Shown here: positions 736 to 23,840 of the stretch, piece after piece
Position numbering within the stretch: position 1 is the first letter of the stretch
How the letters are laid out: each line of letters starts with the position of its first letter
DNA from: Sphingorhabdus rigui
Lineage (GTDB): Bacteria > Pseudomonadota > Alphaproteobacteria > Sphingomonadales > Sphingomonadaceae
Assembly (NCBI RefSeq): GCF_014196595.1
Contig: NZ_JACIEA010000001.1
Coordinates: 436,845-500,844 of the forward strand
Length of the DNA: 64,000 nt
Reading direction: 5' to 3'
Made by a program: the position numbers and the translations under genes
The notes under the pieces: generated by a model
The model's database searches: none
The model's input: only the letters and a program-made list of their open reading frames with translations
Told to the model about the DNA's origin: nothing

Positions 736-1803
736 TCAGATTACCAACCGCCCATGGTCCAATTTCGGCAACACATAACGTGCAAACATGTCGCATTCGT
801 TGATGTGCGGGTAACCCGACAAAATGAACGCTTCGATGCCGACGGCGCGATAGGCTTCGATTTTGGCGAGCACTTGGTCCGGGTCGCCAACGATCGCAGC
901 GCCGCAGCCTGAACGTGCACGGCCAATTCCGGTCCACAGATTGTCTTCCAGATATCCGTCGTTCGCTTCCGATTGCGCGCGCAATTCGGCCTGATGCGCC
1001 ACACCGAAGGTTTGCGTATCCAAGGATTTGTTGCGGATTGCGTCGCCTTGCTGCGCATCCAGCTTGGACAAGAGACGGTCCGCATAGGCCCTGGCTTCGG
1101 CTTCGGTTTCACGCACGATGACATGCGCGCGGAAGCCATATTTCAATGTCCGTCCAAATTTTGCCGCGCGCGCGGTCATGTCTTCGACAAGGTCCTTTGC
1201 GCCCTGAACCGTTTCCGGCCACATCAAATATACATCGCAACCTTCGGCAGCAGCGTCTTTAGCTGCGGGCGAGAGACCACCGAAGTACAAAGGCGGACAT
1301 TTGCCGCTGACGGTCTTCATGCGTGGCGGGTCGAGATCGATTTTATAATGTTCGCCATCAATCGACAGATGCTCGCCGTTCAACAATGTCTTGAGGATCT
1401 GCATCGCTTCGACCGTCCGGCGATAGCGTGGTTCGCTGTCCATCTTATCACCCGGCAAGTCAGACGAGATGATGTTGATGTTCAACCGCCCACCCGAAAT
1501 CTGGTCCAGCGTGGCAATCTGCCGCGCCAATTGCGGTGGCCAGCTTTCGCCAATACGCACCGCCATCAGCAACTTGATGCGTGTGGTCAGCGTCGCAATT
1601 GCGCTGGCAAAAGCAGTGGTATCCAACCCAAGCGTGTAGCCCGAGGGAAGCAATATATTGTCGAACCCGCCCTTTTCCGCGGCGAGCACGATATTGCGGC
1701 AATGCTCCCAACTCGACGCGAGCATGGGGTCGGATTGCCCAAGAAATTCGTAATCATCGTCGCATAATGCCGAGAACCAGCTGACTTCGATTGGATTTTT
1801 CAT
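736..1803 (-). CDS. SsuD-like LLM-class flavin-dependent monooxygenase, probable sulfoquinovose monooxygenase (SmoC-like)
   Basis: A 355-residue member of the FMNH2-dependent alkanesulfonate monooxygenase branch of the luciferase-like family, which cleaves C-S bonds of sulfonates with O2 to release sulfite and an aldehyde. Relative to E. coli SsuD the active-site residues are kept at nearly the same numbers: W195, R225 and H227 in FRAHVIVRE, R297 and Y331 in LSGYPH. The SsuD Cys54 position is not a cysteine. It is the last gene of a four-gene operon, overlapping the aldo/keto reductase by 4 nt, with a sulfoquinovosidase as first gene. That context argues for sulfoquinovose as substrate, giving 6-oxo-glucose. 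No flavin reductase gene is adjacent, so FMNH2 must come from elsewhere. Family certain; substrate inferred. Confidence 0.85.
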   Translation of the reverse strand: MKNPIEVSWFSALCDDDYEFLGQSDPMLASSWEHCRNIVLAAEKGGFDNILLPSGYTLGLDTTAFASAIATLTTRIKLLMAVRIGESWPPQLARQIATLDQISGGRLNINIISSDLPGDKMDSEPRYRRTVEAMQILKTLLNGEHLSIDGEHYKIDLDPPRMKTVSGKCPPLYFGGLSPAAKDAAAEGCDVYLMWPETVQGAKDLVEDMTARAAKFGRTLKYGFRAHVIVRETEAEARAYADRLLSKLDAQQGDAIRNKSLDTQTFGVAHQAELRAQSEANDGYLEDNLWTGIGRARSGCGAAIVGDPDQVLAKIEAYRAVGIEAFILSGYPHINECDMFARYVLPKLDHGRLVI

Positions 1804-2702
1804 GGCAGGGGAACTCCTCGCGCAGCGACCAATACGCTATACCAGTCAGCGCGGGTCCATGTGATTTTGAAGGCATCGGCAGCCTCTATGATGCGTGCCG
1901 GGTTTTGCGAGCCGACAATCGGGATGGGGCGGGCAGGGTGCGCCATAATCCAGCTATAGGCCGCTGCCGTGCGCGAAACGCCATGCGCTGCTGCAACGTC
2001 GGATAGGGCCGCCGCTACATTTTGTTCACGCGTGTTGCCGGGATCGCCGATGCGACCGCCGCCAAGTGGTGACCATGCCAACACCGCCAAATCCATGGCG
2101 ATGGCTTGATCAAGCTCGCCATTTTCGATGGTATCGATCCGCAACGGGGAAAGCTCCGGCTGTGTCGAGACAATCGGAACGCTGCTGAACTGTGCCAAGG
2201 TCGTTATTTGCGCCGTCGTGAAGTTCGACACACCAAAAGCGCGGATTTTTCCGTCTTTATGCGCGTCTTCAATTGTGCGTGCGATTTCTTGCGGGTGGGT
2301 GAGGATATCGGGACGGTGGATTTGCCACAGGTCGACATATTCAGTGCCCAAACGCGACAGGCTGTCGTCAATCGCCTTGGTCAGATATTCCGGGCTGCTG
2401 TCATATGGCGTCGGCGGGGTAATACCGCCCTTGGTGGCCAGCACCATGCGGTCGCGATATTCGGGTGCCTCTGCAAATACGCGGCCAAGCAGTTCCTCTG
2501 CCTTGCCAAAGCCTTGTTCCCCAAAGCCATAAATGTCCGCCGTATCGAAAAGGGTGATGCCGGCTTCGAACGCCGCATCAATGGCCGCGCGGGCTGCGGA
2601 GATTTCGAGACCCGCAAAGCGCCACATGCCCCAGGCAATCGATGAAATTTCAATGCCGCTCTTGCCCAAAAGGCGCGTGGACGGGGGTGTTGGAAGGGTC
2701 AT
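1800..2702 (-). CDS. Aldo/keto reductase, probable 6-oxo-glucose reductase (SmoB-like)
   Basis: A 300-residue single-domain TIM-barrel NAD(P)H-dependent oxidoreductase. The AKR catalytic tetrad is visible as D53 and Y58 (FDTADIYG), K91 (ATKGG) and H129 (QIHRPD), and the C-terminal cofactor-binding segment reads IPIVGSQNPARI. It overlaps the LacI gene upstream and the monooxygenase gene downstream by 4 nt each (ATGA), so the three are translationally coupled. In the Agrobacterium sulfo-SMO pathway an AKR (SmoB) reduces the 6-aldehyde left by sulfoquinovose desulfonation to glucose. The gene order here fits that role. Taken alone the protein could be any YdhF-type AKR; the specific assignment rests on context. 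Confidence 0.85.
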   Translation of the reverse strand: MTLPTPPSTRLLGKSGIEISSIAWGMWRFAGLEISAARAAIDAAFEAGITLFDTADIYGFGEQGFGKAEELLGRVFAEAPEYRDRMVLATKGGITPPTPYDSSPEYLTKAIDDSLSRLGTEYVDLWQIHRPDILTHPQEIARTIEDAHKDGKIRAFGVSNFTTAQITTLAQFSSVPIVSTQPELSPLRIDTIENGELDQAIAMDLAVLAWSPLGGGRIGDPGNTREQNVAAALSDVAAAHGVSRTAAAYSWIMAHPARPIPIVGSQNPARIIEAADAFKITWTRADWYSVLVAARGVPLP

Positions 2703-3730
2703 GTATTTTTGCTCTTTTTTATGGAAGGTGAATAAGGAGGGGCAACCGACTCGCGGCTGATCAGTTCATGGGGAAGGCGGCGATGCTCAATGCCGCCCTC
2801 GCCAAATAATAGGTCCGCAGCGGTCGACGCGAGATCACGTACAGGCTGGCGCACGGTGGTTAAAGGCGGCCAAACAACGCGGGCAAGCGTGGTGTCATCG
2901 AACCCGGCGACAGACAATTGTTCTGGTACCTGAATGCCGCGGCGATGGGCGACGGCAAGGACACCTGAGGCCATGTCATCGTTCGATGCAAAGACCGCCG
3001 TAGGCGGATATTTAAGCGATAGAAATAGCTCGGTCGCCGCAACGCCGCTTTCAAAATCAAAATGGCCCTCGGCGATCAAGTCGGGATCCACCGATATGCC
3101 AACACGGCTAAGCGCGCGTTCATATCCTGCTTGACGTTCGGCACTGGCCATATGGTTCGCATGACCCTTGATAAAGGCAATCCGCCGGTGACCAATGTTG
3201 ATGAGGTGCGTCGTCATGTCGTCGGCGGCCTGCATATCATCCATGAATACCGAGCTGGTAAGCGCATGGTTGGTGCCGGGCGAAATGCGCACGAAGGGAA
3301 TGTTCATCGCTTCAAGGACGTTCAACACGGGGCCGCAATCGGTGACGGGTGAAGACAATATCGCGCCATCCACATGCGTTTGCCGGACCATACCGCGCAC
3401 CTGCTCGCCCACATCGGGGTCGGATACATCGACGGGCTGGGCAATCAGGCGCATGCCTTCTTCATGGCAACGGTCCCAGCAGCCCTGCATGATCTGGTGC
3501 ATATAATAGGGGCTGTGATTGTCATAAATCAGCGCAATCTGGCCCGACTTCGTGCCCGCCAATATGCGCGCTGCGATGCTGGGCGAAAAGCGCAGCTCCG
3601 CCATCGCGGCGTCGACCTTCGCTTTGGTTTCTGCGCTGACATAAGGGTGGTTGTTGAGGACGCGGCTGACGGTTTTGACGGCCACACCGGCAAGCTTTGC
3701 AACATCACGGATATTGGATCGGGTGTTCAT
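2699..3730 (-). CDS. LacI family transcriptional regulator of the sulfoquinovose locus
   Basis: A 343-residue repressor of the LacI/GalR family. It has an N-terminal helix-turn-helix and hinge helix (residues about 6-50, DVAKLAGVAVKTVSRVLNN, then PSIAARILAGTKSG) followed by a periplasmic-binding-like sugar domain (FASNDDMASGVL, SVAGFDDT). The gene is second in the operon, overlapping the glycosidase stop and the reductase start by 4 nt, so it is probably autoregulated. The effector is likely sulfoquinovose, its glycoside or a catabolic intermediate. The natural target is the 5833-5954 divergent spacer and the start of the glycosidase gene, where short inverted repeats are present. Confidence 0.9.
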   Translation of the reverse strand: MNTRSNIRDVAKLAGVAVKTVSRVLNNHPYVSAETKAKVDAAMAELRFSPSIAARILAGTKSGQIALIYDNHSPYYMHQIMQGCWDRCHEEGMRLIAQPVDVSDPDVGEQVRGMVRQTHVDGAILSSPVTDCGPVLNVLEAMNIPFVRISPGTNHALTSSVFMDDMQAADDMTTHLINIGHRRIAFIKGHANHMASAERQAGYERALSRVGISVDPDLIAEGHFDFESGVAATELFLSLKYPPTAVFASNDDMASGVLAVAHRRGIQVPEQLSVAGFDDTTLARVVWPPLTTVRQPVRDLASTAADLLFGEGGIEHRRLPHELISRESVAPPYSPSIKKSKNT

Positions 3731-5832
3731 GCCCTGAATTCCTGCGTGATCGCGCTGAACAGCGCTGCGTGCCCGCTGTCTTTGCGGGTGAATACGGGGG
3801 GCTGCCCATGCGGAGCCGCGATGTCATATGTCCCCTTGGCGTACACGTCGCCGGACCAAAGATGGACCCAATCCCCACCTGGCAAAGTCACGTTGCGGCT
3901 GCTTGCACCCTCTTCGACCACAGGGGCGACGATCATGTCCGCGCCATAGAGATATTGGTCCTGAATGTCGTAATAGGCCGCATCGTCATAGTGCAGGAAC
4001 AACGGGCGCTGAAGCGGCAGGCCCGTGGCAACAGCCTCGTCGGACAAGGCGCGGACATATGGCGCAAGGCGGGCATGGACTTGGCTCATGCGGGCAAAAT
4101 GGGTCAGTATTTCGGCGCTGCTATCGAGTTGCAGATTGTCTGCAGGGCGATTGCCCTCATGACTGCGCATGACGGGTGCAAAGGCCGCCAAGTCAATCCA
4201 ACGGTGCATCAATTCTGCGGTCCGGACTACGCCATGCAGGCTGGTATACCCGCCGAGGTCGCTGTGGTGGTAAGCGTTGCCCAATAATCCGGACGACAAT
4301 GCCGCTGTGATGACGGTGTTGATCCCGTCGTGGCGGGTGAAGTCGACGCATTGGTCGCCTGCCCACAATAATGGACAATGCGCCTGCACGCCCGAGAAAC
4401 CTGCGCGCATGAAAAATGTCGCGTCATGCGTTTTGCCGCGCGATGCTATGGCGTCGGCATTCACCTTTGCCCAAAGCACGGGCCAGCGATTATGCGCCTC
4501 CATCGGGTCAGACCCGTCGAACAGGCGCACATCGGTCGGCAGATATTCGCCAAAATCCGCCATCCATCCCGAAAGCCCGAAGTCGAGCATTTCCTGACCG
4601 ATGATGCGTTCGGCAAACCACGCTGCGGCGGCCGGGTTGCTGAAATCCACAACGCCTGCGTCAAATTCGCCGAAGTCGACGGCATAAGGCGCGTCGCTGT
4701 CCTGCCGCAGTGCGAGGAAGCTGGCGGCGCGGGCCTCTTGATACAGCGACCCATCCACCGCCAAATAGGGGTTCACATAGCCGAGAAAGCGAATGCCGCG
4801 TTCGGCAAGCGCCGCAATCTGTGCGGGCAAATCCGGATAGCGGGCAGCATTCCATTTCCAGTCCCAGAACAATCGCTTGCCAAAGCTGGTCTGACGAATA
4901 CCGATCCAATCTTCGCACCACAGGCCGGTAATCGCGGCGCCCGATGCGGCAATTTTTTCGAACCGGTCAAAGGTGTCGGCACCATCCTTCAGCCCAATAA
5001 TGGCACCGGAAATGGCCCAATCTGGCAGGGCAGGCTGGCGACCAAAGCGATCGGACATTTTGGTAACAAGCGCAGGAAGCGACGGCGCGTCAAAAAGCTC
5101 CAGATCGACATTTGCCGACCAACATTCGACCCCGACCCGGCCCGCGTCCGTCAGATCAAGCACCGAATAGGCCGCTGTTTCGAGGTGCACCGCATAACGC
5201 GCACTGCTTACCCATGTCGGCTGCGGATAGTTGGTGGTCCAATAGTCACCACCGGCCAAGCCATCGGCATCCATCGTCTGCGTAAGCGCGGTCGACTTAT
5301 CGCGGCCAACCCCGGGTTCCGAGGTCCAGAACGGAAAGCGCCTGCCGTTGAGGCGCACATAGGACATTTGTTCGCCGCCGCCCCAAAAGGCCTCGGACAT
5401 TGCGCACTGCATATCTATCCAAAGCCGGTTAAAGGCCGGATCTGTGCAGCGAAATGTGAGGATGGATTGCAGTGCCCGTTCCTCGAGCGCCAGCGTTGCG
5501 ACGATGTCAGGCCGCTTTTCGTTCCAAAGCCGGATACAGCCATCGACTTGCGCGAAACAATCAAGCGCCAATCGTGTTTCAACGACATCGTCAATTCTGA
5601 AATTGCCGCGCACCATTTCCAAGTCAGGCCGCCCGGTACCGATGCTGATCGCAGGCGCGTCATTTCGGTGCGACAATATGCTGGCATCACCATGCAGCAG
5701 GTCAAAGCCTTCAGGATGCATGATGACTGTAAATGGCAACTTCTGTCCCTCTCGCGTTTTCGAGCCTGTGACTATGGCAGTATTGCAACAGTCATGGTTT
5801 AAATAATATGACCATATGACACCGCTAGACAT
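3727..5832 (-). CDS. yihQ: Sulfoquinovosidase, glycoside hydrolase family 31
   Basis: A GH31 retaining alpha-glycosidase that aligns along its length with E. coli YihQ, which releases sulfoquinovose from sulfoquinovosyl glycerol. Visible are the nucleophile D426 (GWMADFGEYLPTD) and acid/base D493 (WAGDQ). The five sulfonate-binding positions are K282, E307, R320, W323 and Y529, matching the KERWY form described for the Agrobacterium enzyme, with almost identical spacing (25, 13, 3, 206). This separates it from ordinary alpha-glucosidases. The protein lacks a convincing signal peptide, so it is probably cytoplasmic. The first ~30 residues do not align with YihQ; a TTG start near codon 32 is possible and would move the promoter inward. 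It is the first gene of the operon. Confidence 0.93.
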   Translation of the reverse strand: MSSGVIWSYYLNHDCCNTAIVTGSKTREGQKLPFTVIMHPEGFDLLHGDASILSHRNDAPAISIGTGRPDLEMVRGNFRIDDVVETRLALDCFAQVDGCIRLWNEKRPDIVATLALEERALQSILTFRCTDPAFNRLWIDMQCAMSEAFWGGGEQMSYVRLNGRRFPFWTSEPGVGRDKSTALTQTMDADGLAGGDYWTTNYPQPTWVSSARYAVHLETAAYSVLDLTDAGRVGVECWSANVDLELFDAPSLPALVTKMSDRFGRQPALPDWAISGAIIGLKDGADTFDRFEKIAASGAAITGLWCEDWIGIRQTSFGKRLFWDWKWNAARYPDLPAQIAALAERGIRFLGYVNPYLAVDGSLYQEARAASFLALRQDSDAPYAVDFGEFDAGVVDFSNPAAAAWFAERIIGQEMLDFGLSGWMADFGEYLPTDVRLFDGSDPMEAHNRWPVLWAKVNADAIASRGKTHDATFFMRAGFSGVQAHCPLLWAGDQCVDFTRHDGINTVITAALSSGLLGNAYHHSDLGGYTSLHGVVRTAELMHRWIDLAAFAPVMRSHEGNRPADNLQLDSSAEILTHFARMSQVHARLAPYVRALSDEAVATGLPLQRPLFLHYDDAAYYDIQDQYLYGADMIVAPVVEEGASSRNVTLPGGDWVHLWSGDVYAKGTYDIAAPHGQPPVFTRKDSGHAALFSAITQEFRA

Positions 5833-5894
5833 ATTGAGTCAATCTGGTAACAACCTGCCCATTGATTAGGTATATCCCAGAATAGCTTTTGTTG

Positions 5895-5910
5895 CTTGAG
5901 GAAACTCAAG
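5895..5910. promoter_or_regulatory. Candidate operator in the divergent sulfoquinovose promoter region
   Basis: A perfect inverted repeat, CTTGAG-GAAA-CTCAAG, lies 45-60 bases upstream of the TonB receptor start, in the spacer between it and the divergent glycosidase operon. Its placement suits a repressor or activator site for the receptor. It lacks the central CG of classical LacI operators, so assignment to the local LacI protein is tentative. Confidence 0.4.
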
Positions 5911-5954
5911 TGATTTGGTTGAGAAGCGGATAGCCATTTTTAGGGAGGTACATG

Positions 5955-8345
5955 ATGTTCAGTTCTGAATTTAAGAAAACGTCGTTTATTCGCGCTTCGT
6001 TGTTCGCAAGCGCCGCGATTATGGCAGGGGTCAGCCTGCCTGCGATGGCGCAGACCGCTCCAGCCGAAAATGAATCGGCCAATGCAGAAATCATCGTAAC
6101 CGCGCAAAAACGTGAAGAGCGTTTGCAGGATATTCCGCTCGCTGTATCCGTTGTTGGCGGCGAGGCTATTGCCAATAATGGCGGCGTTACGCTTGAAAAT
6201 GCGCAGTATCTTGTTCCAAGCTTGAACTTCCGCAAGGCGGGTACATCACTTAACCAGGCATTGTTCCTGCGCGGCGTTGGTACCATCAACTTTTCGATTG
6301 CTGCTGAACCATCGGTTGCTGCCGTTCTCGACGGCGTTGTCTTGAGCCGCGCTGGTGAAGGCTTCACCGATTTGTTTGACGTTGAGCGTATCGAAGTCCT
6401 GCGCGGACCGCAGGGTACATTGTTTGGAAAGAACGCATCGGCTGGTGTTGTCAGCATCGTAACGAAGCGCCCAACGGCAGAATTCGGCGCGACAGTTGAA
6501 GGTTCGTTCTTTACGAAGTCCGAATATCGCGGTCGTGCGACCGTTAACGTGCCGCTGAGCGCCAATGTGCGTTCGCGTTTCACCGGATTTTACGGAAGCT
6601 ATGACGGCAACATCAACAATCTGACCACAGGTAACAAGGTCAATGGCTATGAACATTACAGTGTTCGTGGCGCGATTGAGGCCGACGTTAGCGAAAAGAT
6701 CATGCTGACGCTGCGCGCCGATTACCGCAAAGCCAATGATGATTGCTGTGCGGAAATTATTGGCAATACGCCAACGAACGCGGCTGCGCTGGCGCTCGCT
6801 GGAACTGGCTTCGACGCCTCGGATTCACGCAACATTCGGCAGAACCTTGTTACCACGACTAAGGAAGAAAGCTGGGGCATTGCGCTGCAAGCTGATATCG
6901 AATTGGGTGAACATAGCTTGACGTCGATCACCAGCCTTCGCGGTTGGGATAATACCGAAATCCGCGATGGTGACTGGCTCGACCAGCCCTATGTTGGTTT
7001 GAACCAATTGCACGATAATGGACCGCAAACATCGAATACCTTTAGCCAGGAAATTCGCCTTGCTTCGCCGACTGGCGAATTCCTCGAATATGTCGTCGGG
7101 GCATATTATTCAAAGGCCGAATCTGACCGTACATTCACGCGCAACGTGATTACCTGTTCAGCATCGACTCTCGCTGCGGTTGTGCCTGGCCTCGTCCCTT
7201 GTTCGACAGCTGCAGGTGCTTCGACCATCACAACCCCTGCCGGAACCGCGGACTTTGGATCGACGTTTAAAAACATGTCGCTATTTGGTCAGGCTACGCT
7301 CAACCTTTCCGACAGCCTGCGTTTTATTGGTGGCTTGCGCTACACAAATGACGAATTGGATGTAAACCATATCCGCCGTACCTCGCTCGCAGGTCCAGGT
7401 GTGCAAGGAAACTTTGACGCTGGCGTTTACAATAATGGTCTCGTGGCAACCGCGCCCGCTACCGGCTTTGTTGCAGGCACGTCAAACGGCGTTCCCTTCA
7501 CCACCAGCACCAGCAACAATAACCTTTCGGGTAAGGCGGCTGTTCAGGCGGACCTCACTGAAAACAATATGGCTTATGCGAGCTACACGCGTGGTTATAA
7601 GGGCCCTGCCTACAACATCTTCTATAACCTGACGACACCCGGCGCTGGTGTTATCGCACCAGAAACGGTCAACGCTTATGAAGTGGGTTTGAAAAATACC
7701 CTTTTCGACGGCGCCCTGATTCTTAACCTCGCGGCATATTATGCCAAGTATAACAACTATCAGGCAAACAGCCCAGACTTCGTAGCCGGTGTACGCACCA
7801 CGCGCCTGACAAATGCAGGTTCGGTATCGACCCAAGGTTTCGAGGTTGATTTTGTTGCGACGCCATTGCGTAACTTCACGCTTTCGGGCGGCGTTGCTTA
7901 CAACAAGGCGCAGGTTGAGAATTTCCGCTTGCCACCAGGTGCTGACGCATCGCAATTGGTTGCCAAGGGCACGCCTTTGGCGAACGCACCAAAGTGGAAA
8001 ATGTCGTTTGGCGCACAATATAACATTGAAACGTCGGGCTTTGCGAATATCGAGTTGGCAAGCCAGATCTCAAGCCAGTCCGACCAGATTTACGAAGCGA
8101 GTGCGAACCCGGCTGTTCGCCTTGGCTCGACCGTAGATGGGTATGCGATTGTCGATGTGTCAGCAGCGTTGGTTGATCCTAACGATGGATGGCGGCTTGC
8201 GCTGCAGGTGAAGAACCTGTTCGATAAAAGCTTTGCTTCCTCGATCGTATCGGGTGGCCCTGGCGGCGCATATCGCTACATCATCCCCCGTGAGGCGGAT
8301 CGGTATGTTGGCGTAACTGCAAAGATCAATTTCGGCGCGAAATAA
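5955..8345 (+). CDS. TonB-dependent outer-membrane receptor, probable sulfoquinovoside uptake
   Basis: A receptor of about 796 residues with an N-terminal signal peptide ending near PAMAQ, a plug domain (EIIVTAQKREERLQDIPLAV; VERIEVLRGPQGTLFGKNASAG) and a 22-stranded barrel ending in a hydrophobic/aromatic strand (YVGVTAKINFGAK). It imports large or scarce substrates through the outer membrane using energy from TonB/ExbBD. Of two adjacent ATG codons (5952, 5955) the second is 6 bases from a GGGAGG ribosome site and is preferred. It is transcribed divergently from the sulfoquinovosidase operon and ends in its own terminator. The substrate is inferred from context: sulfoquinovose, sulfoquinovosyl glycerol or a sulfolipid fragment. 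No inner-membrane transporter is in the locus. Confidence 0.92.
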   Translation: MFSSEFKKTSFIRASLFASAAIMAGVSLPAMAQTAPAENESANAEIIVTAQKREERLQDIPLAVSVVGGEAIANNGGVTLENAQYLVPSLNFRKAGTSLNQALFLRGVGTINFSIAAEPSVAAVLDGVVLSRAGEGFTDLFDVERIEVLRGPQGTLFGKNASAGVVSIVTKRPTAEFGATVEGSFFTKSEYRGRATVNVPLSANVRSRFTGFYGSYDGNINNLTTGNKVNGYEHYSVRGAIEADVSEKIMLTLRADYRKANDDCCAEIIGNTPTNAAALALAGTGFDASDSRNIRQNLVTTTKEESWGIALQADIELGEHSLTSITSLRGWDNTEIRDGDWLDQPYVGLNQLHDNGPQTSNTFSQEIRLASPTGEFLEYVVGAYYSKAESDRTFTRNVITCSASTLAAVVPGLVPCSTAAGASTITTPAGTADFGSTFKNMSLFGQATLNLSDSLRFIGGLRYTNDELDVNHIRRTSLAGPGVQGNFDAGVYNNGLVATAPATGFVAGTSNGVPFTTSTSNNNLSGKAAVQADLTENNMAYASYTRGYKGPAYNIFYNLTTPGAGVIAPETVNAYEVGLKNTLFDGALILNLAAYYAKYNNYQANSPDFVAGVRTTRLTNAGSVSTQGFEVDFVATPLRNFTLSGGVAYNKAQVENFRLPPGADASQLVAKGTPLANAPKWKMSFGAQYNIETSGFANIELASQISSQSDQIYEASANPAVRLGSTVDGYAIVDVSAALVDPNDGWRLALQVKNLFDKSFASSIVSGGPGGAYRYIIPREADRYVGVTAKINFGAK

Positions 8346-8371
8346 CCAAAAGCCCTTAAGGCGCACAAAAA

Positions 8372-8407
8372 AAGGCTGGAATCCGCAATGGGTTCCGGCC
8401 TTTTTTG
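8372..8407 (+). terminator. Rho-independent terminator of the TonB receptor gene
   Basis: GGCTGGAATCC and GGGTTCCGGCC form a stem with one mismatch and a short loop, followed by TTTTTTG and preceded by an A-tract. It lies 27 bases past the receptor stop codon. The A-tract/T-tract symmetry would let it work in both directions. Confidence 0.9.
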
Positions 8408-8429
8408 TTTTCAAATTTCAGGAGAGAAA

Positions 8430-8582
8430 GCGAGGACGGGCGGTGCGAGACCAAAAGCAAACCACCCGTCCTCGCTGAGTGGGTTTTGAACGTGAGCGTA
8501 TATGAACCCGTGTTACCATAGTTCGCTAAAAAGCCGAAAGTCAGACCAGTTGGGGCGGTTTTTGCGAACCGCCCCTTTTTCT
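8430..8582 (+). ncRNA. Possible small RNA between two terminators
   Basis: Between the receptor terminator and the hydrolase gene there is a long hairpin with 15-nt arms (8430-8444 and 8461-8475, one mismatch, 16-nt loop) with no T-tract. After 75 unstructured-looking bases comes a strong intrinsic terminator (8552-8582). A transcript ending at that terminator would be about 150-170 nt, with a 5' hairpin. No reading frame of note is present. I do not recognise the sequence as a known RNA family. The alternative is that both hairpins are only back-up terminators for the receptor gene. Confidence 0.35.
8552..8582 (+). terminator. Rho-independent terminator upstream of the MBL hydrolase gene
   Basis: GGGGCGGTT (8552-8560) pairs perfectly with AACCGCCCC (8567-8575), with a 6-base loop and a TTTTT tail. 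It ends 28 bases before the hydrolase start, so the hydrolase must have a promoter overlapping or inside this element, or the terminator belongs to a small upstream transcript. Confidence 0.85.
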
Positions 8583-8610
8583 TTGCGCGACATTGCGCCA
8601 TAGCCAGTTC

Positions 8611-9522
8611 ATGACCAACTGGCCCGATAGCATAGAAGCTGGCGAAACTGAGCAGCACGAACCACTTGTGCGCCGCGTGCTCGCGCCCAATGCCTCGCCT
8701 TACACCTATACAGGCACGCAAACCTGGTTGGTTGGCGCAGGGTCCGATGTTGCAATTATCGACCCGGGCCCAGTCGGCAGCGGGATGAGCATTGGCGATC
8801 CGGCTGATATCAATGGCGAGGGGCATGTCGAGGCGATCTTGCGCGCTGTTGCCGGCAAGCGTGTCGCCGCCATTATGTGCACGCACACCCATCGCGATCA
8901 TTCGCCAGCGGCAGCGCCGTTAAAGGCCGCGACAGGCGCGCCAATCATCGGTTGTGCGCCGCTTGTCTTGCGCGACGATGGCCCGCGTTCCGATAGTGCT
9001 TTTGACCCGGATTATGCCCCTGACCGCATTCTTGCCGATGGAGAGCGTATTTCAGGCGACGGGTGGACTTTGGAAGCCGTCACGACCCCCGGCCACACGA
9101 GCAACCATATATGCTACGGACTGGTCGAGAGCGGGGCGTTGTTTACCGGCGACCATGTCATGAAATGGTCCACCAGTGTTGTCAGTCCGCCCGATGGCGA
9201 TATGAGCGACTATCTGGCGTCCTTGCAAAAATTATATGAGCGTACGGATCGCATTTATTACCCTGCGCATGGGCCAGCGGTCGAAAACCCAAGGCAGCTT
9301 GTGCGCGGCATGATTGGTCATCGTCGCCAGCGGGAACGCCAGATTCTGAAATTGCTTGAGGCAGGCGAGGGGCACATTCCCGACATGGTCGCTGCGATGT
9401 ATAAGGGTCTCGATCCGCGTTTGACGGGCGCTGCTGGCCGGTCAGTCTTGGCGCATCTCATCGATTTGCAAAATCAGGGCCGGGTCGCTGCCCAAGGCGA
9501 TGGTTGGCATTTAATCCCGTAA
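8611..9522 (+). CDS. MBL-fold metallo-hydrolase
   Basis: A 303-residue metallo-beta-lactamase-fold protein with the dinuclear zinc motif THTHRDH (H92, H94, D96, H97) and further ligands in TPGHTSNH and FTGDHVM. It is followed by a small winged-helix-like C-terminal region, as in LACTB2-type hydrolases (glyoxalase II-like or RNA-processing relatives). The reading frame extends upstream to a TTG at 8593, but the ATG at 8611 gives a normal N-terminus (MTNWPDSIEAG) and is preferred. The substrate cannot be told from sequence. It stands alone, followed by nadA in the same direction after about 110 bases. Confidence 0.88.
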   Translation: MTNWPDSIEAGETEQHEPLVRRVLAPNASPYTYTGTQTWLVGAGSDVAIIDPGPVGSGMSIGDPADINGEGHVEAILRAVAGKRVAAIMCTHTHRDHSPAAAPLKAATGAPIIGCAPLVLRDDGPRSDSAFDPDYAPDRILADGERISGDGWTLEAVTTPGHTSNHICYGLVESGALFTGDHVMKWSTSVVSPPDGDMSDYLASLQKLYERTDRIYYPAHGPAVENPRQLVRGMIGHRRQRERQILKLLEAGEGHIPDMVAAMYKGLDPRLTGAAGRSVLAHLIDLQNQGRVAAQGDGWHLIP

Positions 9523-14413: not shown

Positions 14414-14455
14414 ATCGTGGATTGTGCACCGCGACATTCTGATTATGGTGGCCGC

Positions 14456-15910
14456 ATGACCCGTTTGCTGCCGTTTTTGCTTTTGTTGCTGTCGGCTATA
14501 CTTGCCGGTTGTTCGCAGGGCGTCGACAATGAACGTGTCCGTGTAGACGTGATTGAGGAGCGCCCCAAGCCGTTCAACGTGTCTGCTGTGCCATTGCCGC
14601 TCGCCTCTGCCTATCTGCGCAGTGCCACGGCGCAGGGGCTTGTTACCTTCGACGAAAAAGGCCGCGTTGCGCCGGGGTTGGCGAGCCGCTGGATCGTTAA
14701 TGATGACGGTATGAGTTATATTTTCCGCCTGAACAAAGCGCGGTGGAACGATGGGCGTGAACTAAACTCGCAAGAGGTCGCGCAGCTTTTGACCCGGCGC
14801 ATAAGTGAACTCAAAAAGGGCCGTATGGGGTCAGAGCTTGCCGTCATTGACCGCGTCGTCGCAATGACAGGCAAGGTCGTTGAAATCCGGCTGAAGGCCC
14901 CGATGCCTTATTTGCTTGAGCTGCTTGCTTTGCCCGAATTCGGATTGTTACGTCGCGGTGCCGGGTCCGGCCCGATGCAGGCCAAGAAATTGGGTCAGGC
15001 CATGCAGTTGCGGCGCAATGAAACCGATGCCGAGGGGGCGACGGTTCTTGGCCCCGCAACCGTTACGCTCCGCCGGGGCGAAGCTTCGCTGGTGCTCGCG
15101 CGTTATGTGCTTGGGCAGACCGATTTGATTGAGGGTGGCCGGTTTGAAACCTTCCCGTTGCTCGAAGCGGCAAAGATCAATGCCAATGAGATCCAGTTTG
15201 ATGCTGTCCCGGGTTTGTTTGGATTGATGGTGGTGCAGGCTGGACCCTTTTTAGCGAACAAGGACAACCGGACCGCGATCGCGATGGCCATTGACCGGCC
15301 AAAGTTGCTCACAGCTTTCGACATTGTTGCATGGCGCGAAACGGTCACGCTGGTGCCCGAAAGCTTACCGAACCGCGCGGACATTGCTCGGCCCGATTGG
15401 GCGGCGCCATCCATGGACCAAAGGCGATCCATGGCGGCGGCAAGCATTGCAAACTGGAAGCGCGCGAACGGGGCCATCCGGCCTTTGCGGGTTGCCCTGC
15501 CACGAGGGTATGGCAGCCGCATATTTTTTGCGCGCCTGCGCGCTGATCTGGCGGCCGTGGGTGTCGATATTGAGCGGGTGACCGCCGATCGGCCACATGA
15601 CCTGCGTTTGATTGACCTGACGGCGCAGCAATCCAGCCCTGCATGGTATCTGGACCAATTGTCCTGCAAATTTGCCGCGATCTGCAGCGCGCGGGCGGAT
15701 GCAATTGTCGCAGAGGCGCGCATGACCAAGGACATGGCAATGCGCGCGCAATTATTGGGGCAGGCTGAGGCTGAAATGCAATCCACGGTTGGCTTTATTC
15801 CGATTGCCAATCCGCTGCGCTGGTCGGTCGTGCGGCCGGGGCTTTTGGGGCACTTTGCCAACGGACGGGGCTGGCACCTGTTGCAATATCTCGGGCGGGA
15901 CCCAACATAG
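14456..15910 (+). CDS. Peptide-type ABC substrate-binding lipoprotein (SBP family 5), orphan
   Basis: A 484-residue protein with a lipoprotein signal (MTRLLPFLLLLLSAILAGC; lipobox LAGC). The body resembles solute-binding family 5 (oligopeptide/nickel binders): GLVTFDEKGRVAPGLASRW, an internal FRLNKARWNDGRELNSQEV block and AIAMAIDRPKLL near the middle. Upstream in-frame codons exist, but the ATG at 14456 gives the signal sequence directly. No permease or ATPase genes are nearby, so it may be a sensor or a chaperone-like binder for cell-wall peptides, in keeping with its PBP and protease neighbours. The solute is unknown. Confidence 0.82.
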   Translation: MTRLLPFLLLLLSAILAGCSQGVDNERVRVDVIEERPKPFNVSAVPLPLASAYLRSATAQGLVTFDEKGRVAPGLASRWIVNDDGMSYIFRLNKARWNDGRELNSQEVAQLLTRRISELKKGRMGSELAVIDRVVAMTGKVVEIRLKAPMPYLLELLALPEFGLLRRGAGSGPMQAKKLGQAMQLRRNETDAEGATVLGPATVTLRRGEASLVLARYVLGQTDLIEGGRFETFPLLEAAKINANEIQFDAVPGLFGLMVVQAGPFLANKDNRTAIAMAIDRPKLLTAFDIVAWRETVTLVPESLPNRADIARPDWAAPSMDQRRSMAAASIANWKRANGAIRPLRVALPRGYGSRIFFARLRADLAAVGVDIERVTADRPHDLRLIDLTAQQSSPAWYLDQLSCKFAAICSARADAIVAEARMTKDMAMRAQLLGQAEAEMQSTVGFIPIANPLRWSVVRPGLLGHFANGRGWHLLQYLGRDPT

Positions 15911-21893: not shown

Positions 21894-23840
21894 ATGCAGA
21901 AATTCTTATGCGCCATGCTGTTGAGCACGGCGTCGGCCACAGGTGCTTTTGCGCAAGACGCCAAGCCAGCATCGGACGCGACCATTGCCGCCCAGCGCAG
22001 CATGGCGGCCCAGCTTCCGGTGGACGATGGTCGTGACCTCGAATTTGCAGATCGCGGATTTATCGGAACGCTTGCAGACCCCATTATCACGAACAAAGAT
22101 GGCAAGCCTGTCTGGAATTTGGGCGCTTATGACTGGATGGGCAATTCGGCATCACCGGACACGGTAAACCCCAGCCTGTGGCGGCACATGGGGCTTTTGC
22201 GCAAGCATGGCCTATATGCGGTGACCGACAATATGTGGCAAGTGCGCGGGTTTGATGTGTCCAACATGACCATCATCAAAGGGCAAACGGGTTGGATTAT
22301 CATCGATCCGTTGACCAGCCGGGATACCGCCGCCGCGGCGCTGAAGCTGGTAAATGAAAAGCTGGGTACACGCCCTGTATCTGCCGTCATTTATAGCCAT
22401 AGCCATGGCGACCATTTTGGCGGCGTGCGCGGCATCGTCAATGAAGCCGATGTTAAGGCGGGCAAAGTCACCATTATCGCGCCCGAACATTTTCTGGCTG
22501 AAACCGCGTCTGAAAATGTGATGGCCGGGCCAGCGATGGGACGGCGGGCGACATTCCAATTTGGCACCAACTTGGCACCGGGGCCGCAGGGTCAAATGGG
22601 CAGTGGCATCGGCAAAGGCATTGGCGGCGGTGACATTACGCTCATTTCGCCAACCATCGACATTCGCAAAACCGGCGAAGTGCGCGAAATTGACGGTGTG
22701 AATCTCGAATTTCAAATGGTGCCCGCGACAGAAGCGCCAGCCGAAATGAACGTTTATATCCCGGCAGCGCGCACATTTTTGGCGGCAGAAATAGCCACCT
22801 GCAGCCTGCACAATATTCTGACGCCGCGCGGTGCCAAGGTACGCGATGCGCTCAGCTGGTCCGGATTCCTGAACGAAGCCGTCAACCTGTACGGCGACCG
22901 AAGCGACACCATCATCTCAAGCCATTGCTGGCCACGCTTTGGACAGTCCGAGGTCAAAGGCTGGTTGTCGGGCCAACGCGATAACTATCGCTATTTGCAC
23001 GACCAGACAGTCCGCATGATGAACAAGGGCATGACCCAAGTCGAAATTGCCGAAGCGTTGAAAGCGCCGCCAGCGATTGGCGACCAATGGTTCAACAAGG
23101 GCTATTACGGCACCTACAGCCACAATTCGAAGGCCGTGTATCAATATTATCTTGGCTGGTATGACGCCGTCCCTGCCAATCTTAACCCCCACCCGCCTGA
23201 AGTTCGCGCGGCGAAAATGGTGGCCGCAATGGGCGGGGCAAAGAAGCTGCTCGCAGCGGCCAAAAAGGCCATGAAGGCGGGGGACTATCGCTGGTCTTCG
23301 GACCTGTTGAACCAATTGGTTTTTGCCGATCCCAAAAATGTTGAGGGCCGCGCTTTGCTTGCCGACAGCTATGAACAGCAAGGCTATCAGGCGGAGTCCG
23401 CGATTTGGCGTAACATGTTTCTGACCGGTGCGGCCGAGCTACGGCGCGGCATGAAGGCGGGCGTAAGTACCCAAAGCATCGACATGATTTCAGCGATACC
23501 AACTGGCCTGTTGCTCGATTCTGTCGCAACCCGATTGGATCCGAAGATTATCGGTAATGCCGCACTGACGCTGAATTTTGTGATTTCGGACCGGAAAGAG
23601 ACAGCAAAAGTCACCGTCGGCAATGCGGTGATGATCAGCGAAATGGGAACAGGCCATGCCGCGCCAGCCGTAACTATATCCGGACCGCGTCAATTGTTCC
23701 TGGCTCTGCTATTCCTGAAAATGCCGGCAGCGCAATTGCAAATGGCTGGGCTGAAGATCGAAGGCGACCGGTCGGTTGTCGACAAGCTTCAGGCGGCGCT
23801 TGACCCCATGCCGGGCGCATTCAACATCGCCGAACCTTAA
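21894..23840 (+). CDS. Alkyl sulfatase (type III, SdsA1-like)
   Basis: A 648-residue exported zinc alkylsulfatase with a signal peptide (cleavage near GAFA-QD). The MBL domain carries SHSHGDHFGG (H169, H171, D173, H174), TEAPAEM, a second acidic ligand in AAEIATCSLHN and SSHCWPRFG. A helical dimerisation domain and a C-terminal SCP2-like domain that binds the alkyl chain follow. Such enzymes release sulfate from primary or secondary alkyl sulfates such as dodecyl sulfate, in the periplasm, for use as a sulfur or carbon source. The start follows GGGGGAGAG. It is a second organosulfur gene in the window, but not linked to the sulfoquinovose operon. Confidence 0.93.
   Translation: MQKFLCAMLLSTASATGAFAQDAKPASDATIAAQRSMAAQLPVDDGRDLEFADRGFIGTLADPIITNKDGKPVWNLGAYDWMGNSASPDTVNPSLWRHMGLLRKHGLYAVTDNMWQVRGFDVSNMTIIKGQTGWIIIDPLTSRDTAAAALKLVNEKLGTRPVSAVIYSHSHGDHFGGVRGIVNEADVKAGKVTIIAPEHFLAETASENVMAGPAMGRRATFQFGTNLAPGPQGQMGSGIGKGIGGGDITLISPTIDIRKTGEVREIDGVNLEFQMVPATEAPAEMNVYIPAARTFLAAEIATCSLHNILTPRGAKVRDALSWSGFLNEAVNLYGDRSDTIISSHCWPRFGQSEVKGWLSGQRDNYRYLHDQTVRMMNKGMTQVEIAEALKAPPAIGDQWFNKGYYGTYSHNSKAVYQYYLGWYDAVPANLNPHPPEVRAAKMVAAMGGAKKLLAAAKKAMKAGDYRWSSDLLNQLVFADPKNVEGRALLADSYEQQGYQAESAIWRNMFLTGAAELRRGMKAGVSTQSIDMISAIPTGLLLDSVATRLDPKIIGNAALTLNFVISDRKETAKVTVGNAVMISEMGTGHAAPAVTISGPRQLFLALLFLKMPAAQLQMAGLKIEGDRSVVDKLQAALDPMPGAFNIAEP

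Follow-up and report, generated by a model that had tools for sequence, protein, structure and literature searches.

A probable sulfoquinovose monooxygenase locus in Sphingorhabdus rigui and its putative LacI regulon spread over the chromosome

Gene content of the locus

Our analysis concerns a 64,000-nucleotide stretch of the Sphingorhabdus rigui genome (the window; contig NZ_JACIEA010000001.1), in which positions 736-8345 hold five genes of a putative sulfoquinovose degradation locus and an operator-like site. Four genes on the minus strand, joined by three 4-bp ATGA overlaps, encode an SsuD-like monooxygenase of the SmoC/SquD type, dependent on reduced flavin mononucleotide (FMNH2) (736..1803; PF00296, Bac_luciferase, E 3.9e-54), an aldo/keto reductase of the SmoB/SquF type, predicted to convert 6-dehydroglucose to glucose (1800..2702; PF00248, Aldo_ket_red), a LacI-family regulator (2699..3730; PF00356 and PF13377, Peripla_BP_3), and a GH31 sulfoquinovosidase (likely 3727..5739, the listed open reading frame [ORF] being 3727-5832; NF007746, with a GH31 barrel and a C-terminal domain). 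Divergent from them, on the plus strand, lies a TonB-dependent outer-membrane receptor (5952..8345), identified by its plug (PF07715) and barrel (PF00593) domains together with conserved linkage. The operator-like site TATGACACCGCTAGACATA (5815..5833, plus strand) is one of the two matches to TATGACACCGCWAGACATA without mismatch in the genome. A first-pass annotation of this DNA had listed the same five genes with their divergent arrangement, families, and three overlaps, all of which are present where it placed them. It had also remarked that a TonB receptor, and no ATP-binding cassette (ABC) importer, stands beside the operon, which is true of 736-8345: neither an Agrobacterium-type ABC importer with its binding protein nor a clustered flavin reductase gene (SmoA or SsuE) was found in this interval.

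The start listed for the sulfoquinovosidase, the ATG at 5832, is probably incorrect: it falls within the operator-like site, and several relatives carry in-frame stops over the matched N-terminal extension; by eye, TTG 5739 or ATG 5721 is likelier. Since no signal peptide was seen by eye after the revised start, we assume a cytoplasmic enzyme.

Comparisons covered an order sample of 296 genomes and a genus sample of 45, of which 32 were sulfoquinovosidase-positive and 13 negative. G000 denotes the genome holding the window, other G numbers compared genomes, and L numbers fetched loci. Of 163 loci, 28 were removed as duplicates or because the monooxygenase scored below 300 bits, and another 22 because they did not extend far enough; each of the 113 non-redundant loci retained includes at least 8.5 kb on the 5' side of the monooxygenase. 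An initial ORF clustering held antisense ghost ORFs and served solely to find candidates; the gene counts for the 113 loci come from tblastn at bit-score thresholds that we set. At E ≤1e-70, the monooxygenase was called in 55 of the 296 order genomes. The TonB receptor (at least 380 bits) was present in 104 of the 113 loci, orientation left uncounted, and the core arrangement is therefore not due to chance; the expectation that these genes occur together in related sphingomonads was thus confirmed. The same loci contained 77 GH31 and 32 GH188-like genes, 63 genes of major facilitator superfamily (MFS) type I or II, 48 YeiH-like genes, and 20 GlpD-like genes. By name, the near relatives are Sphingorhabdus species and metagenome-assembled genomes, in agreement with the sphingomonad host that had been proposed.

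Enzyme identities and pathway assignment

Each of the three predicted enzymes resembles sulfoquinovose-pathway proteins more closely than the other members of its family with which it was compared. Against solved chains, the monooxygenase scored 365 bits with 7olf and 362 bits with 7oh2, far above the 201 bits obtained with E. coli SsuD (1nqk/1m41), and its 264.7 bits on the SsuD equivalog TIGR03565 fell under the cut-off of 518.2. Labelled sulfonatase/alkanesulfonate monooxygenase in the structure file, 7olf and 7oh2 are the chains that we take to be the Rhizobium and Agrobacterium sulfoquinovose monooxygenases; the R-x-H and GYPH motifs, presumably of functional importance, are conserved in the alignment. 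The best solved chain for the adjoining aldo/keto reductase, whose gene shares an ATGA overlap with that of the monooxygenase, was 7bbz (7.1e-47), which we take to be A. tumefaciens SmoB. The GH31 protein scored 858.9 bits on NF007746, above the cut-off of 553, and it is far nearer to the yihQ chains 5ohy (1.9e-250) and 5aed (2.2e-181) than to the next GH31 kind (1e-39), which places its sequence in the YihQ clade. In the alignment, the Asp pair and the K/E/R/W/Y residues, which we presume to be catalytic and sulfonate-binding, respectively, are identical to those of the best yihQ chain.

These similarities bear on whether the locus might instead act on another sulfonated sugar or on a simple alkanesulfonate, as in SsuD-like sulfur scavenging, with sulfoquinovose not its main substrate. 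The monooxygenase does belong to the SsuD superfamily, and a related sulfosugar, sulfofucose, is described as a bacterial substrate in the part of PMC12421959 that was consulted. The distances of both the GH31 enzyme and the monooxygenase from the alternative members of their families argue the other way, and a LacI regulator with an outer-membrane receptor would suit carbon use better than a response to sulfur starvation; we regard a different main substrate as improbable. Judged by sequence, the locus is very probably the core of a sulfoquinovose monooxygenase (sulfo-SMO, or sulfo-ASMO) pathway, and the sulfo-SMO enzyme set recognized by the first-pass annotation is borne out by the families and by the closest solved relatives.

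Elsewhere in the window, 21894-23840 encodes an alkyl sulfatase of the SdsA type (Alkyl_sulf_dimr, Alkyl_sulf_C, Lactamase_B), which adds a second sulfur-releasing enzyme to the neighbourhood of the locus, and 14417-15910 encodes an SBP_bac_5 solute-binding protein. Outside the sphingomonads, a sphingomonad-like monooxygenase (69% identity) occurs in Rhizobium sp. SL86 (L170), perhaps through horizontal transfer; the first scan of that locus did not find the other four reference genes, save for a weak receptor match.

An operator-like motif shared with a satellite locus

In other sphingomonads an MFS gene stands beside the receptor, and a 61% identical copy is found in G000 at C1:128642-129892, in a satellite locus 0.31 Mb from the core. 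A YeiH-family gene and GlpD adjoin this MFS gene and are divergent from it, and both gene kinds also accompany the sulfoquinovose locus in relatives. Comparing the two divergent intergenic regions, between sulfoquinovosidase and receptor in the core and between MFS and the YeiH-GlpD pair in the satellite, revealed one common stretch, CCATATGACACCGCTAGACATAT in the core and CCATATGACACCGCAAGACATAA in the satellite, with 18 of 19 bases shared. A search for even palindromes with a central CG yielded nothing; the motif came from the shared-word comparison. Within G000, TATGACACCGCWAGACATA has two matches without mismatch, one at window 5815-5833 and one in the satellite; a further two have 3 mismatches.

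The exact core site was found in 28 of the 32 sulfoquinovosidase-positive genus genomes and in none of the 13 negative ones, the other four positive genomes carrying it with 1, 1, 3, and 4 mismatches; a reversed-pattern control gave 15 matches at ≤3 mismatches over all 45. All 20 satellite loci examined have the site. Furthermore, each of 30 further monooxygenase-positive genomes, our own selection out of the remaining 54 and predominantly GH31-type, contained a 0-mismatch match to the family consensus TNTGACAMCGCTTGACANA, with 6 matches at ≤2 mismatches for the reversed control. Across the 113 loci, the presence of the motif (≤2 mismatches) followed the regulator: it occurred in 68 of 73 loci with a LacI of at least 60% identity, in 3 of 22 at 45-60%, and in 1 of 18 in which none was found, the reversed control matching in 0 of 113. 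Among GH31 loci alone, the motif was present in 68 of 69 with an orthologous LacI and in 0 of 7 with a diverged one, and the sole GH31 locus without a LacI match carries a 2-mismatch site. The link between the motif and this LacI in GH31-type loci is thus well supported, and a site that recurs at different loci and whose presence is tied to the regulator is the pattern of a LacI regulon. We consider it very likely that the 19-bp element is the operator bound by this LacI.

Three observations weigh against this assignment: the motif is missing from all four GH188 loci in which the LacI is an orthologue (62-66%), the site is only an imperfect palindrome, and it can also be read as the start of a short peptide (MTPLD). 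The last of these raises the possibility that the element is a conserved coding start, that is, a leader peptide beginning MTPLD, and not an operator; ATG ACA CCG is found at all three G000 sites (the third is described below), the satellite ATG is the likely YeiH start, and several central variants still encode leucine. The outer half-sites are nevertheless complementary (TATG-C...G-CATA), the fourth codon of the G316 variant is a stop, the sequence downstream differs between sites, and motif presence tracks the LacI orthologue, all of which make a leader peptide a most unlikely explanation.

Several weaker sites were set aside. The 3-mismatch sites in three sulfoquinovosidase-negative genomes (L288-L290) were not counted, being near another LacI; the sites in L291-L297 were not counted as regulon members, since none of the tested regulon genes lies nearby. 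As a separate observation, the similar site TATGACATCGTTAGACATG of L288-L290 and the nearby LacI, about 40% identical, perhaps represent a sister regulator with a related operator.

The satellite transporter as a candidate importer

The first-pass annotation had held that, in the absence of an ABC importer, the receptor stands in. We reject this reading: the satellite supplies an MFS candidate elsewhere in the genome beside a copy of the same operator-like motif, and a receptor of this kind crosses only the outer membrane. At E ≤1e-120, the MFS gene was found in 35 of the 296 order genomes, all 35 of which have the monooxygenase (Fisher 1.4e-31); the two genes are no more than 20 kb apart in 26 of these and farther apart in nine, G000 among them. 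The transporter genes matched in G000 include 21 MFS_1 matches and four PF00528 ABC permeases; the pair of permeases that was read is PotBC-like by eye, and the other pair is on C3.

Some results count against the satellite MFS as the importer. The cut-off of 1e-120 was chosen post hoc, after a score gap from 1e-123 to 1e-108 had been noticed; at E ≤1e-90 the figure becomes 40 of 55 genomes, the lower scores belonging to paralogues that are 40-47% identical. In 20 of the 55 monooxygenase genomes this MFS type is missing. Of the 20 satellites read in Sphingorhabdus, 9 hold an MFS of a different type (38-40% identity to the query), which also occurs in the sulfoquinovosidase-negative genus genomes G296, G302, and G326.

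Such variation of MFS type among sister species and the occurrence of one type without the sulfoquinovosidase, together with the 0.31-Mb separation and the abundance of MFS_1 genes, would fit a core that is a stand-alone unit, as in the first-pass reading, in which the receptor carried out uptake and an unrelated general permease completed it, MFS, YeiH, and GlpD forming an independent glycerol or sulfate unit. The near-identity of the core and satellite sites, the position of the same genes within the locus in relatives, and the one-way co-occurrence of the MFS with the monooxygenase speak against this arrangement, which we judge unlikely. The satellite MFS is, by contrast, a likely importer of sulfoquinovose or of a sulfoquinovose glycoside. 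In the satellite of G000, a stretch of about 4.9 kb between GlpD and the conserved flank (L229:1750-6681) is absent from L230 and L231; by eye, its ORFs include an AraC-like gene and one for a TIR-like/TPR-like protein.

Cassette replacement beside the operator-like site

Receptor and MFS genes are replaced beside the operator-like site in sister species. The window and the corresponding locus of G083 (L043) share 94% DNA identity over 739-5834 and again from 8542, whereas the receptor between them (window 5834-8541) has only 41% protein identity. One edge of the receptor swap falls at the operator-like site. Similarly, satellite L229 aligns with L232 over 7105-9329 and again from 10615 onward, with YeiH, GlpD, and the flanks kept, and the MFS gene between (L229:9330-10614) is replaced in L232 by another MFS type, with an edge about 50 bp from the site. 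By eye, receptor type and MFS type are seemingly not coupled within the genus.

A candidate flavin reductase at a third site

A third site, GATGACACCGTTAGACAGA, is located 38 bp upstream of the start codon (ATG) of a gene (G000:C1:530379-531593) in which an alpha/beta-hydrolase-like domain is fused to a PF01613 flavin reductase domain. Nineteen regions around further sites were retrieved, and in 17 of them (L269-L285) the site precedes the same fusion; the other two, L286 in G315, which was not counted, and L287, a 3-mismatch site at G000:C1:1611404, have no fusion gene. A fusion orthologue (at least 80% identity) is present in 26 genus genomes, all of which have the sulfoquinovosidase, present in 32 of the 45 overall (Fisher 3.7e-7). 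One of the 26 is truncated; before the 25 assessable orthologues, the site was found at ≤3 mismatches in 17, at 4-5 in 5, and at ≥6 in 3. Among 16 printed fusions, Leu stands at what we presume to be the position of the hydrolase catalytic His, and 12 have an elbow-like A-T/S-H-S-A-W motif. Because Leu replaces the expected His, the hydrolase domain may be inactive.

The evidence that this fusion belongs to the regulon is mixed, and the following points tell against it. The site has 3 mismatches in G000; the 3 of 25 genus orthologues at ≥6 mismatches retain only decayed traces; five of five more divergent fusion genes of the genus lack the site, as do all eight of the fusions read outside the genus (the order sample holds 10 that are full-length). 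Moreover, 4 of 14 order genomes with a full fusion lack the monooxygenase, and the reductase search of G000 covered PF01613, with the SsuE-type PF03358 outside it.

Instead of the sulfoquinovose monooxygenase, the fusion might serve a different two-component monooxygenase, such as one that acts in the breakdown of aromatics. The best NCBIfam matches of the reductase domain, all below cut-off, are of the HsaB, p-hydroxyphenylacetate hydroxylase reductase, and FerA types, and by eye its neighbours in G000 are dioxygenase-like, which, along with the fusions that occur without the monooxygenase or without the site, makes another partner a realistic if less than even possibility. On the other side stand the restriction of the genus orthologues to sulfoquinovosidase-positive genomes, the presence of the site immediately upstream in 17 of 25 despite neighbouring genes that differ between G000 and G278, and its standing as the sole PF01613 match in G000. 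On balance, we slightly favour the fusion as the FMN reductase partner of the sulfoquinovose monooxygenase, a recruitment proposed because of the weaker third site.

Proposed pathway and regulon

Taken together, these findings suggest a sulfo-SMO regulon spread over the chromosome, with a core, a satellite encoding an MFS importer, and possibly the fusion reductase, a reading to which we assign a probability of about 0.8. Sulfoquinovosyl glycerol or sulfoquinovose would cross the outer membrane via the TonB receptor and would then be carried over the inner membrane by the MFS protein, a putative sugar-acid-type symporter encoded 0.31 Mb away (G000:C1:128642-129904). The cytoplasmic GH31 enzyme would free sulfoquinovose, the SsuD-like monooxygenase would use FMNH2 for oxygenolytic C-S cleavage to sulfite and 6-dehydroglucose, and the aldo/keto reductase would reduce the latter to glucose. 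Sulfite or sulfate probably leaves the cell through the YeiH-family transporter, and the glycerol part, once phosphorylated, could be taken by GlpD. LacI is predicted to repress all of these genes via TATGACACCGC(T/A)AGACATA-type operators, with derepression by a ligand, and the alpha/beta-hydrolase/flavin-reductase fusion, as the weaker third site suggests, may have been recruited as the FMN reductase. The fullest version, a three-locus LacI regulon of core, satellite, and a dedicated unlinked reductase with a Leu-for-His hydrolase domain, combined with exchange of both transporter genes between species as cassettes that have an edge at the operator or no more than about 50 bp from it, we consider an even chance.

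Such an arrangement would mean that cluster-only surveys overlook parts of the system, for whose hidden members the operator would provide a direct handle. Which reductase feeds the sulfoquinovose monooxygenases that lack SsuE becomes testable with one gene, and the sister species offer a natural case of receptor and importer exchange at a fixed regulatory site. Sphingorhabdus, a freshwater-type sphingomonad, would possess a known oxygen-dependent route for the plant sulfur-sugar sulfoquinovose.

Comparison with known systems

The suggestion that this pathway may be undescribed, made in the first-pass annotation, is rejected. In the part of PMC9594981 that was consulted, the route is described from Agrobacterium and from the sphingomonad Novosphingobium aromaticivorans DSM 12444, the latter with recombinant enzymes (Liu et al. 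2021), and some clusters, for example that of N. aromaticivorans, are stated to lack SsuE. The portion of PMC13372026 at hand reports that 13C-sulfoquinovose labels Novosphingobium and predicts sulfo-SMO in reference genomes, a positive genome having the monooxygenase and the aldo/keto reductase within 10 ORFs; a figure legend in PMC10755693 names GH188-type sulfo-SMO clusters, one of them from Sphingomonas sp. Leaf17. On these accounts, as far as their excerpts go, a sphingomonad route without a clustered reductase is not new. For the split regulon, the operator, and the reductase candidate, no description was found in the accessible text of the open-licence literature on sulfoquinovose with TonB, LacI, and MFS, nor did the transporter content available from PMC13372026 and PMC12890257 hold anything on sphingomonad uptake.

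The GH188-type sulfo-SMO clusters have the monooxygenase step in common with our locus and, in sphingomonads, mostly the TonB receptor too; they differ in a Gfo/Idh-type (GH188-like) gene in place of GH31 and in a LacI that is mostly diverged or missing. The Agrobacterium tumefaciens sulfo-SMO system (Sharma et al. 2022, as relayed in reviews) likewise combines monooxygenase, aldo/keto reductase, and GH31 enzyme, but is described, in the excerpts consulted, with an ABC transporter (PMC9594981) and a clustered flavin reductase, SmoA (PMC13372026), whereas Sphingorhabdus has a TonB receptor and an MFS transporter together with an unlinked reductase candidate. The closest counterpart is the sulfo-ASMO of N. 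aromaticivorans DSM 12444 (SquD, SquF), also from a sphingomonad, in which, according to the same part of PMC9594981, both enzymes were found via a cluster with a YihQ-type sulfoquinovosidase and without SsuE; relative to that account, Sphingorhabdus is distinguished by importer and reductase candidates at separate loci beside a common operator-like site.

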